Source of the DNA: Flavobacteriales bacterium
GTDB lineage: Bacteria > Bacteroidota > Bacteroidia > Flavobacteriales_D > Parvicellaceae
NCBI GenBank assembly: GCA_025210295.1
Contig: JAOASC010000016.1
Span: 62,001-126,000, forward strand
Direction of reading: 5' to 3'
Length of the DNA: 64,000 nucleotides
Shown here: piece by piece, positions 48,774 through 55,435 of the stretch
Layout: each line of letters opens with the position of its first letter
Position numbering within the stretch: position 1 is the stretch's first letter
Position numbers and translations under genes: made by a program
Notes under the pieces: model-generated
What the model was told of the DNA's origin: nothing
Databases searched by the model: none
What the model saw: the letters and a program-made list of their open reading frames with translations, nothing else

Positions 48774-49007
48774 TTATTTTAGGTCAAAGGTCTTGCATGC
48801 TCGTAAGTATATCTTTTCTAGCGCTTTATGATAATGTGGTTCAGCTTTTTTTATTAATAACGTTACCCCTTGCTTTATTAAACGATAAATTAAGCGTATG
48901 ATTTTATAGAGCATTCGAAAAATATATCGCACACTTTTAAAGAAATATACCAAAATAATAATAGCATATTTCTCCACAACCTCCATATATTTTCTCTGAT
49001 TATCCAC
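48774..49007 (-). CDS. Small basic amphipathic protein
   Basis: 77 residues from a GTG at 49007, or 70 from the ATG at 48986 (MEVVEKYAII), which may be the true start. The first half is a hydrophobic helix studded with Lys/Arg (YFFKSVRYIFRMLYKIIRL), the second half a charged helix with HYHKALEKIY. It looks membrane-associated. Two ACTTAA hexamers (49006 and 49018) lie at or just before its start, and a near-match -7 box (TATACTTG) is at 49051-49058. No family recognised; coding is likely but unproven. Confidence 0.5.
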   Translation of the reverse strand: MDNQRKYMEVVEKYAIIILVYFFKSVRYIFRMLYKIIRLIYRLIKQGVTLLIKKAEPHYHKALEKIYLRACKTFDLK

Positions 49008-49188
49008 TTAATATTTTACTTAATTAAATATTGACCTGTTTTGTTATATGCAAGTATACTATCAATAAATACAATGGTTTCAATTATTAAGTAAAAGTTA
49101 AAACTCAAGTAAAACCTTAAGTTAACCACTTAAAAACAACTTAATTTTTACTTAAGTATTTTATTGAGTTACTTAATTTTTTACTTAA
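49006..49188. repeat. Phased array of ACTTAA hexamers
   Basis: ACTTAA starts at 49006, 49018, 49128, 49139, 49150, 49171 and 49183. The steps are 12, then 11, 11, 21 and 12 bases, close to whole helical turns. TTAAGT, its complement, occurs at 49087 and 49117 (with a one-mismatch copy at 49105), and the copy at 49150-49157 is the full palindrome ACTTAAGT. The array fills the gap between two divergent starts and overlaps the promoter of the gene at 49200. It is a candidate cooperative operator. Confidence 0.65.
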
Positions 49189-49193
49189 CTTTG
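49164..49193 (+). promoter_or_regulatory. Promoter of the regulator gene at 49200
   Basis: TTG at 49164-49166, a 19-base spacer, and TAACTTTG at 49186-49193, a full Bacteroidota promoter. Two ACTTAA hexamers (49171 and 49183) lie in the spacer and across the -7 box, where bound protein would block polymerase. Transcription would start at about the ATG itself, giving a near-leaderless message. Confidence 0.65.
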
Positions 49194-49199
49194 TATAGC

Positions 49200-50327
49200 A
49201 TGCTTAAATACAGCTTTATAGAACATCCGCTTTATTACCTCTTACGCACATTGGACACGCTTATTCCGAATGTGCAAAAAGCCTATGTCCTATTTGCTGA
49301 TAACTCAAAAAAAATAAACTTCTATAGTTATACTGAAAAAGAAAAACTCGACTTAAGAAATAAAAAGCACCTGATTCAAAAAACAAGAGCTGAAAAAAGA
49401 AACACTTCTTGGATGCGTACTGATATGCTAGAATTTATTCACGATGGAAAGCGTAAGAATAAAATTCAACAGCTGTCATTAACTGATGAAAATGAGAACA
49501 ACATCCTGTGCTTAAAATTTATTTCTCCTTATGACGATTTATATGATGTATTGTATATTGAATTAAATCAATCCAATCTTTTACAATTTGTTAAAGAGGG
49601 TAAAGAATTCACCACAAGTGAAAAGGCTTTGGTTGCAACTATTCTATACAATGCTATCAAATCGCGTATTGAAACAGAATACAAAAATTTAAATACACAT
49701 GCTTTAATTATAAATAGCTTTAGTAATCAACAATCAAAGATTCGTGGTTCGTTTGAAGAAAATGAACGTTTAAAACGAAACTATGAACAAACATTTAATT
49801 ACTTCTTAAATGCTATAGCAAAAGAAATTAAACAAAAAGAGCAAATTAGATTGGACTACTCTCCTACTTGTATTTCTTATATTGCTACACTAACAAGTAA
49901 TTTAGATGTTATTCGCGCCTCTATTTTAAGAGCTGTTGCTATTGCTCAAAATTTACACTTAGGACAACTAAAACAATTGACTTTAGAACCTGAACACATT
50001 GAAATTGTTCAACCTAAAGAAACGCAAGCTAAAACGGGGTATTATAACAAACACCAAAATGTGATTGACATGCTCGATAAGTATGAAGTGGCTGCTATTG
50101 AATTAAGTGAAAAAGGAATGAAAGTTAATGGAGCTAATGTTGCTCAGCAATGTACACCAAGTATAACACCTGCTGCAATTTCTTTTAACCTAAAAAAATA
50201 TGCTCATGTAATTTTATTATTGATTGAAAAACATGATACCAAATGGAACACCATTAAAAATCAGTTTAAACCTTTAATGAATATTATTGAAAAACATAAA
50301 GGCGATTCAAAAAGTAAAATTGCTTAG
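49200..50327 (+). CDS. GAF-like / NtrC-tail-like regulator of unknown target
   Basis: 375 residues from ATG 49200 (MLKYSFIEHP); the frame's TTG at 49164 lies inside the promoter. Residues 10-165 are alpha/beta with a late DVLYIELN-to-FTTSEKALVATI stretch that resembles a GAF domain. After a coiled linker, LDYSPTCISYIATL to LRAVAIAQNL looks like the lid region of sigma-54 activators, but there is no ATPase domain. The last 90 residues are helical with a possible HTH (VNGANVAQQCTPSITPAAISFNL). This is a structural reading, not a family match. It probably binds the ACTTAA array upstream. Confidence 0.6.
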   Translation: MLKYSFIEHPLYYLLRTLDTLIPNVQKAYVLFADNSKKINFYSYTEKEKLDLRNKKHLIQKTRAEKRNTSWMRTDMLEFIHDGKRKNKIQQLSLTDENENNILCLKFISPYDDLYDVLYIELNQSNLLQFVKEGKEFTTSEKALVATILYNAIKSRIETEYKNLNTHALIINSFSNQQSKIRGSFEENERLKRNYEQTFNYFLNAIAKEIKQKEQIRLDYSPTCISYIATLTSNLDVIRASILRAVAIAQNLHLGQLKQLTLEPEHIEIVQPKETQAKTGYYNKHQNVIDMLDKYEVAAIELSEKGMKVNGANVAQQCTPSITPAAISFNLKKYAHVILLLIEKHDTKWNTIKNQFKPLMNIIEKHKGDSKSKIA

Positions 50328-52660: not shown

Positions 52661-55435
52661 ATGACTACTTTTTTAAAACAAATTGCTGACGACCTCATTG
52701 AGCACTACACTACTGAAGAGTTTCGAAATATTCTTTTAATCGTCCCATCAAAACGTGTAGGTCTGCATTTAAAAAAAGAACTTTCAATACGTTTAAAAAA
52801 AACTTTTTGGTCTCCACAAATCAAAAGCATCGATGAATTTTTAGTCGAAAAACATCCTTTAGGCGTAATTGACAACATTTCAATCCACTTTGAATTATAC
52901 CAAGCTTATGCTAACCTTTTTGAAAGCGAAGAAACTTTTGATTCTTTTCAATCTTGGTCAAGTCAAATTATCAATGACTTTAACGAGATTGATCGCTACC
53001 TGTTGGACCATAAAGCTGTATTTAGCAACCTAAAAGACATCAAAGAAATAGAACAATGGAGTTTTAATTCTACAGAGCTAAGTGAAAACCAGAGTAAGTT
53101 TTTGGTGTTTTGGGAGAAACTTGGAGAACTCTATGAAAATTTCACCAACCAGTTACAGGCAAAACAACTTGCAACTTCTGCGCGAATTTATCGTGAAATA
53201 GCTAGTCAACCTCAAAAGTATTTAAACGAACTTCCTTACCAAAAAATCTATATTATTGGTTTTAATGCTCTCTCTAAAAGTGAAGAAGAAATCTTTAAAT
53301 ACCTCTACCAAACATCTAAGGCAAAACTATTTTGGGATACTGATCAATATTACCTTAACAATAAATTATATGAAGCAGGTCACTTTATTCGCAACTACAA
53401 ATGGGCCACTGAAAGCATAAAATCTTCAGCAGGTAATACCATTTCTACCCAAGCAAAAAACATCAATATTTACCCAGCAAAAACAGCAATTGATCAAGTG
53501 AACATTGCTGCTAAAATCATGGAAAAAGATGTTGCTTTTAGACAAGAAAAGAGCGCTTTAATTTTAAGTGATGAACATTTACTCAATCCTCTTGTGAACA
53601 CTATTCCAGTGGGGCTTGATCAAATGAATATCACTATGGGGTATGCACTTTCTAATACCCTTGCTCAAGAGTTATTAGACACCTGTTTAGAAGTTATTAT
53701 AAACAACCAAAGATTCAACAAATCTAATGCTAAAAGCATTTATTTTAAAGATTTAATTAAACTCTTTGAAAACGCTCTATTTAAACAACTTACCTCAGAA
53801 AAAACATTAACTTTTTCTCGCTTTAAACGAGAAGTTATTCAATATAATTACTCCTTTATTACCTTAAAAAATTTAAGGGACTACTTTGGTGACTTTCATC
53901 AAGTTCTTACCTTTTTATTTTTTGATCGAAACAAGACGATTACTACTGTATTAGATGAGCTCATTACTTTTATTCAATCAGTTCGTCAACAACTCATTTC
54001 AGTAGATGAACTAAACATTGAAATTGAGGCGTTATATCGAATAGAAAAAGTACTCAACAAAGTTAAAGGGCTATTAAACACCTACCCTTTTATTACGACT
54101 TTATCTGGCTTAAGAAAGATCATTCGACAAGTACTAAACAAAGAAAAACTATCATTTTATGGAGAACCTTTGCAGGGACTTCAAGTGATGGGATTTTTAG
54201 AAACTCGAGCACTTGATTTTGAAAATGTGATTTTACTTTCATGCAATGAAAGTTTTTTACCTGGTGTTGCTCCGAGTAATTCATTAATTCCATTCGATTT
54301 AAAGCTTTATTTTAATCTTCCCACAAAATCAGATCGAGAAGCAATTTTTGCCTACTATTTTTATCGGGTAATTCAAAAAGCAAAAAACATTCATTTAGTA
54401 TATAATAATGGTATTGCCAATGGAATTGATTCCAACGAAATCAGTCGATACCTCATTCAAGTTGAAAATGAATTGAACGATTTTGAAAACATCAACATTC
54501 AAACACATCATATTAATTACCTTTTCAATACGAAAAGCAAAGATAAAGCAGTAGAAAAAGATTCCACTACACTTCATAAACTTGATTTGTTTTTTAAAAA
54601 CGGGATCTCTCCTTCTGCGCTCAACAATTACATTGCCTGCTCATTGGATTTTTATTATGCCTATGTTTTAAGAATTAAAGAGCAAGAAGAAGTTGAAGAA
54701 TCTATTGAGAACAGTACTTTAGGAACAATCACGCATCAGGTTTTAGAAAACTTATACACTGATTTAGGACCAATTATTAAAGTAGAGACCATTGATACCA
54801 TGCTCCAATTATTTGAAGCAGAAACGCATAAAATATTTCAGGAGAAATTCCCACAAGGGAATTATAAAAAAGGGAAAAACTTATTGATTTTCTCTATGGT
54901 ATTGAAGAGTATTAAACAATTTCTACTCAATGAAAAGCGTTTTATACAGCAACATGGTTTTATCAAAATTCTAGGGTTAGAACAAGACTTAAGACACACT
55001 TTAACGATAACTACAACTGATGGCGAAAAAGAAGTGTTACTAAAAGGAAATGCTGATAGAATAGACATCATCAACAATACTATTCGGGTGATTGATTATA
55101 AAACTGGATTTATCGAACAGAAAAATGTCAGCAAACAATTCGACAGCTTGTTAACCCATCAGGATAGTTCAAAGGCCAATCAATTAATGTTTTACGCTTA
55201 TTTGTACTATAAAAATTTTGGAAAGACGAATTTAACTTCAGGTATTTTTTCTTTAAGAAATCTTAATGCAGGTCTATTAGAATTGAAATTAAAAGATGGT
55301 AGAACGAGCCTTGATTTCGACACCGAAATTTTTGATGCTTACGAAAAGCATCTAGTTGAGAAAATTAGGGAGATTTATGATACTTCAATACCTTTTACTC
55401 ATAACATTGATGCTAAATATTGTATGATTTGTTAA
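52661..55435 (+). CDS. AddB-like PD-(D/E)XK nuclease/helicase-related protein
   Basis: 924 residues, resembling the AddB subunit of AddAB-type break-processing complexes. The N-terminal Walker loop is degenerate (IVPSKRVGLHLKK). The C-terminal nuclease has YIACSLDFYYAYVLR (first cluster Cys), GTITHQVLENLY, and catalytic DRIDIINN-to-VIDYKTG. The protein ends at KYCMIC, so the C-x2-C pair is present but the later Cys expected of an AddB 4Fe-4S site is missing. A terminator follows. No AddA partner is in the window. Confidence 0.83.
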   Translation: MTTFLKQIADDLIEHYTTEEFRNILLIVPSKRVGLHLKKELSIRLKKTFWSPQIKSIDEFLVEKHPLGVIDNISIHFELYQAYANLFESEETFDSFQSWSSQIINDFNEIDRYLLDHKAVFSNLKDIKEIEQWSFNSTELSENQSKFLVFWEKLGELYENFTNQLQAKQLATSARIYREIASQPQKYLNELPYQKIYIIGFNALSKSEEEIFKYLYQTSKAKLFWDTDQYYLNNKLYEAGHFIRNYKWATESIKSSAGNTISTQAKNINIYPAKTAIDQVNIAAKIMEKDVAFRQEKSALILSDEHLLNPLVNTIPVGLDQMNITMGYALSNTLAQELLDTCLEVIINNQRFNKSNAKSIYFKDLIKLFENALFKQLTSEKTLTFSRFKREVIQYNYSFITLKNLRDYFGDFHQVLTFLFFDRNKTITTVLDELITFIQSVRQQLISVDELNIEIEALYRIEKVLNKVKGLLNTYPFITTLSGLRKIIRQVLNKEKLSFYGEPLQGLQVMGFLETRALDFENVILLSCNESFLPGVAPSNSLIPFDLKLYFNLPTKSDREAIFAYYFYRVIQKAKNIHLVYNNGIANGIDSNEISRYLIQVENELNDFENINIQTHHINYLFNTKSKDKAVEKDSTTLHKLDLFFKNGISPSALNNYIACSLDFYYAYVLRIKEQEEVEESIENSTLGTITHQVLENLYTDLGPIIKVETIDTMLQLFEAETHKIFQEKFPQGNYKKGKNLLIFSMVLKSIKQFLLNEKRFIQQHGFIKILGLEQDLRHTLTITTTDGEKEVLLKGNADRIDIINNTIRVIDYKTGFIEQKNVSKQFDSLLTHQDSSKANQLMFYAYLYYKNFGKTNLTSGIFSLRNLNAGLLELKLKDGRTSLDFDTEIFDAYEKHLVEKIREIYDTSIPFTHNIDAKYCMIC

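Follow-up and report, generated by a model that had tools for sequence, protein, structure and literature searches.

The window (the whole stretch of DNA analysed, 64 kb) contains two divergent genes separated by a short gap: a small gene on the reverse strand, and a gene starting at 49200 that encodes a regulator-like protein (hereafter the 49200 gene and the 49200 protein). Between 49006 and 49188 there are seven ACTTAA and three TTAAGT hexamers, giving ten sites with nine distinct TTAA cores ( Table 1 ). The ACTTAA copies start on the forward strand at 49006, 49018, 49128, 49139, 49150, 49171 and 49183, in steps of 12, 110 (10x11), 11, 11, 21 and 12 bases, and the TTAAGT copies start at 49087, 49117 and 49152. 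The original prediction, made from the sequence of the window, had reported seven ACTTAA copies, in agreement with these letters. It had counted two exact TTAAGT copies, both of which are present, but a third exists at 49152 as one half of the palindrome ACTTAAGT (49150-49157), which it had correctly recognised as palindromic. The array had also been assigned to the gap between the two start codons. This is true of most of it, but the distal site overlaps the GTG start codon of the small gene (49007-49005), an overlap that is kept within the genus.

Table 1. Features of the locus, with positions in the window
Feature	Position	Strand	Basis
Divergent small gene, 77-aa basic hydrophobic protein, GTG start	48774..49007	-	Small divergent ORF recurs in most relatives
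Phased ACTTAA/TTAAGT array, 9 TTAA cores, very probable operator	49006..49188	.	Letters, shuffles, phasing, conservation beside orthologues
Distal pair ACTTAA-N6-ACTTAA; first copy overlaps GTG start of divergent gene (TTAAGTG)	49006..49023	+	
Possible -7 box of divergent gene, TATACTTG, weak	49051..49058	-	Inferred from sequence; block partly conserved
TTAAGT site within genus-conserved block (GTTTCA...TTAAGTA)	49087..49092	-	
TTAAGT site	49117..49122	-	
Three ACTTAA in exact 11-bp steps, last in palindrome ACTTAAGT	49128..49157	.	
Promoter TTG-N19-TAACTTTG, predicted transcription start ~49198, nearly leaderless	49164..49193	+	Letters and box position rule (PMC9723704)
Proximal pair ACTTAA-N6-ACTTAA in promoter, one in spacer, one on -7 box	49171..49188	+	
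49200 gene, encoding a regulator-like protein of 375 aa with a GAF-like domain, a coiled coil, an AAA-lid-like segment and a conserved helical C-terminal domain that has an HTH-like core	49200..50327	+	

The letters of the promoter are exact (TTG at 49164-49166, 19 bases, and TAACTTTG at 49186-49193), and two ACTTAA copies lie within it, as had been proposed. The promoter matches the flavobacterial sigma-A consensus, in which a TAnnTTTG box occupies -12 to -5 (PMC9723704), and the predicted transcription start is about 2 nt 5' of the ATG at 49200. Since this predicted start lies after the array, the array would act as DNA, being left out of the downstream mRNA.

The array has as neighbours the small protein, a tRNA-His gene and an MBL-fold hydrolase. 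The small protein is basic and hydrophobic, with a RAxxFF or ACxxFD motif and no Pfam family, both at 48774-49007 (-) and at four loci in relatives (L041, L046, L067, L075). The examples tested from family f8 and genus g2 have a transmembrane-like stretch. Homology of the small protein across families is judged by eye from the short motif. A gene at 52661-55435 (+) encodes a 924-aa protein with an AddB-like PD-(D/E)XK nuclease domain.

In the window as a whole ACTTAA is not over-represented (64 copies seen, 85.6 expected); it is the clustering at this locus that is exceptional. The array is the densest 195-bp cluster in the 64 kb, where the next unrelated cluster has three sites, and the best such cluster in a 400-kb sample of the contig has four. 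In dinucleotide-preserving shuffles of the 195-bp array stretch, the mean number of sites was 1.15 and the maximum 7, and none of 20000 shuffles reached ten. The nine TTAA cores are in phase with one another at a period of 11.0 bp (R = 0.90; allowing for the scan over periods, p is about 0.01 or less), which bears out the proposed ACTTAA steps of 11-12 bases or about two turns on one DNA face. It might be argued that the array arose by chance in AT-rich DNA, or is curved low-complexity DNA without specific recognition, given the GC content of 20% in the region and the AT-richness of promoters. The shuffles, the lack of such clusters in other sampled DNA and the retention of the hexamer's C/G letter through deep divergence make this reading extremely improbable, in agreement with the original view that an AT-rich background does not suffice.

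The exact triple of ACTTAA at 11-bp steps occurs once in the genome of the window, and ACTTAA pairs elsewhere in that genome are at the control level. When 60 relatives were scanned, the triple was found at a 49200-type gene in eight genomes; 41 relatives without the gene yielded three isolated triples, equal to the control rate. In seven genomes, triples were at or below control except at the locus of the 49200 homologue, and in sampled DNA of two genomes (G008 and G072) clusters of array density were seen at the homologue alone. Pattern and cluster scans found no second array in any genome searched, and the other matches obtained while seeking a regulon of further arrays were at the control level. 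Equal density of the motif in unrelated regions, which the original prediction had named as evidence against itself, was thus not observed: no comparable cluster appeared in the other DNA scanned. A literature search on the ACTTAA and TTAAGT hexamers returned a single paper containing both, on an unrelated subject.

Conservation beside homologous genes

Homologues of the 49200 gene were found in 18 of the 59 relatives searched, in 46 of 355 genomes of the order (the window's own genome counted), and also in families outside the order within the same class. Among homologues with upstream sequence read, the array was present in the window's family and in four other families, in more than one order. 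Array-bearing homologues reach down to about 21% protein identity, and the array is weaker in the most diverged. Upstream regions were counted at 40 loci from the window's family and families f4 (L018, L019), f8, f44 and f62. There were 3-12 ACTTAA/TTAAGT sites per 300 bp in the window's family, f4, f8 (L066-L077, L209), f44 (L207, L208) and f62 (L210-L212). ACTTAA occurred at least three times in 38 of the 40 regions, above any other hexamer. The two loci with fewer than three ACTTAA/TTAAGT sites, L215 and L216, carry mostly GCTTAA, and in genome G105 the array is weakened to few sites.

Four loci (L213-L216; f62, genus g137) have a diverged C-terminal helix in the protein (SPPALTDSINKH / SAPALTDSINKH) together with few ACTTAA and more GCTTAA upstream. 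It is possible, judging from these sequences, that the protein helix and the upstream site co-vary. At two further loci, L014 (G028:C11 10786-11933) and L011 (G023), the homologue is broken by stops or a frameshift and the upstream array is intact.

Invariant columns account for 39 of 56 site letters versus 39 of 154 in the rest of the intergenic DNA (p 1e-8). Between genera, the positions of the sites shift, while their number and helical periodicity stay. Pooled site distances are periodic at 10.8 bp, a value reached as strongly by 0 of 2000 randomisations, with peaks at about 12, 19-23, 31-32 and 41-44 and troughs between. With one locus per family, which controls the kinship of the sequences in part, the period was 10.7 bp and 4 of 2000 randomisations were as high. 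Taken one by one, loci of the window's family show the strict 11-bp phase clearly, and many f8 loci do not reach significance. Orthologous regions without the spacing would have spoken against the original prediction; what was found is that the array is kept, and that helical spacing is kept when the loci are pooled. Most homologue loci have a TAnnTTTG (or TTCG) box just a few bases 5' of the start codon, and where there is a box, ACTTAA/TTAAGT sites overlap or adjoin it.

The array is phased over a promoter and accompanies the same gene even in distant relatives within the Bacteroidia, which makes a genuine multi-site operator very probable. The flanking genes differ across families while the array stays with the 49200-type gene.

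The 49200 protein

Searches of Pfam, NCBIfam, PHROGs and PDB sequences with the 49200 protein and with its C-terminal domain assigned no family. In the AlphaFold2 model one can distinguish a GAF-like domain, a long coiled coil, a segment resembling the lid found in AAA+ activators such as FleQ, and a helical C-terminal domain, none of them assigned to a family with confidence. The N-terminal domain resembles GAF domains (Z 7-8; model pTM 0.47) without a Pfam match, and the lid-like segment resembles the FleQ/FlrC lid (Z about 7). The sigma-54 AAA+ domain has no Pfam match in the 49200 protein (P0001) or in 16 aligned homologues, the model having the lid-like segment only. Conservation is highest in the C-terminal domain, which is modelled with a mean pLDDT of 90 and an HTH-like helix pair. 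Foldseek and VIA-align gave nothing confident for it (best Z 4.2, a DtxR chain), so "HTH" is our reading of the model; Fis-type HTH (HTH_8) has no Pfam match. A phage or plasmid origin of the gene was considered and rejected, as no phage or plasmid homologue was found.

Alternatively, the array could serve as operator for another regulator, with its gene elsewhere, that acts on both the 49200 gene and the divergent small gene. An operator need not bind the product of the neighbouring gene, and binding by the 49200 protein is a prediction. The array, however, follows the 49200-type gene across families with different flanks and is absent without the gene, and the gene itself encodes the conserved domain modelled as HTH-like. 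We regard control by another regulator as unlikely.

Position in the chromosome

GC skew turns from plus to minus near the locus in three genomes (G008:C1 at 1.95 Mb, L088; G105:C1 at 2.07 Mb, L161; G072:C1 at 1.89 Mb, L172). Helically spaced repeats in an AT-rich gap might suggest a replication origin or an iteron-type origin, and six of seven genomes have dnaA at a distance of about 40-390 kb. The direction of the skew change, however, has the sense of a terminus, with which the rRNA orientation agrees in two genomes, and the protein lacks a phage or plasmid homologue. No oriC-type change (minus to plus) was seen at the locus in the genomes with readable skew. Because of the skew direction this reading was rejected as hardly credible. 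The distance to dnaA is about 40-115 kb in G000:C16, G007, G015 and G129, and 1.5 Mb in G008.

The position near the terminus may be inherited, and we take it as a lead and not as evidence for function. It bears on another interpretation, in which the array is a centromere-like partition or anchoring site: the 49200 protein would coat it, the small membrane protein would tether it near the terminus, and autoregulation would be secondary. A single array per genome in the searches, the recurrence of the small basic hydrophobic protein, the nearby skew reversal in G008, G105 and G072, and some ten repeats spaced 11-12 bp apart, a feature of parC-type centromeres, are consistent with such a site. 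On the other hand, the terminus position is less clear in G007 and G000, with the locus roughly 0.1-0.2 Mb off, the genomes are related, there is no ParM/ParA-like partner beside the array, the sites fall to few in some relatives (G105; f62), and a GAF-like domain would be unexpected there. We therefore hold an anchoring site to be improbable. Its wider form, that the array works with the HTH-like protein and its small divergent membrane partner as a Bacteroidia chromosome-positioning system marking the terminus region, seems more doubtful still; if true, a regulator-like fold would have been recruited for anchoring.

In parC of the ParMRC plasmid partition system, about ten repeats are stepped at 11-12 bp around a promoter, and in these respects the array is similar. 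It differs in being chromosomal and of mixed orientation, with no actin-like ATPase adjoining.

The proposed operator and related systems

The operator reading for the adjacent regulator, as originally put forward, is supported by the sparsity of the motif elsewhere, its retention beside orthologues and the HTH-like domain in the model. From these sequences, the binder would most likely be the 49200 protein itself, and as a whole the locus probably represents a cooperative autoregulatory operator of this protein that controls both divergent genes. The C-terminal domain would read RCTTAA (mostly ACTTAA), and several molecules would be aligned along one DNA face; so lined up, they would be expected to bind cooperatively. 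Repression appears the likeliest sign, since one site is in the promoter spacer and one over the -7 box. As the distal pair also lies over the divergent gene's start, occupancy of the array most likely represses both genes, combining autorepression with control of the partner. The GAF-like N-terminal domain may sense a signal and loosen or tighten binding in response. A sensor-like domain of this sort would suit a wider regulon as well, but the scans found a single array; a regulon of single sites may nevertheless exist.

A predicted DNA site and operator, together with a recurrent partner gene, can thus be assigned to an uncharacterised protein family that occurs in several families of Bacteroidia, from more than one order. 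To our knowledge, it is uncommon for an operator to retain many phased sites over so much divergence, and the specific regulators of this phylum have been little mapped. We consider the locus to present a new regulator family with its operator, and no new principle.

The 49200 protein resembles enhancer-binding proteins of the NtrC/FleQ type in its modelled GAF-like N-terminus, FleQ/FlrC-lid-like segment and C-terminal DNA-binding-like domain. Unlike them, it has no match to the AAA+ ATPase core or to the Fis-type HTH, and its promoter is of the TTG/TAnnTTTG type and not -24/-12. A further likeness is to autoregulated repressors whose own divergent promoters carry multi-site operators, where several phased sites likewise lie on the regulator's -7 box and beside a divergent gene. 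Compared with these, the present array has its nine TTAA cores spread over about 180 bp, has no second copy in the genomes searched and is kept over orders, and its protein family is absent from Pfam, NCBIfam and PHROGs. Judged from the sequences, the element would seem to be ordinary in kind, an autoregulatory multi-site operator, and unusually dense, phased and deeply conserved in form.
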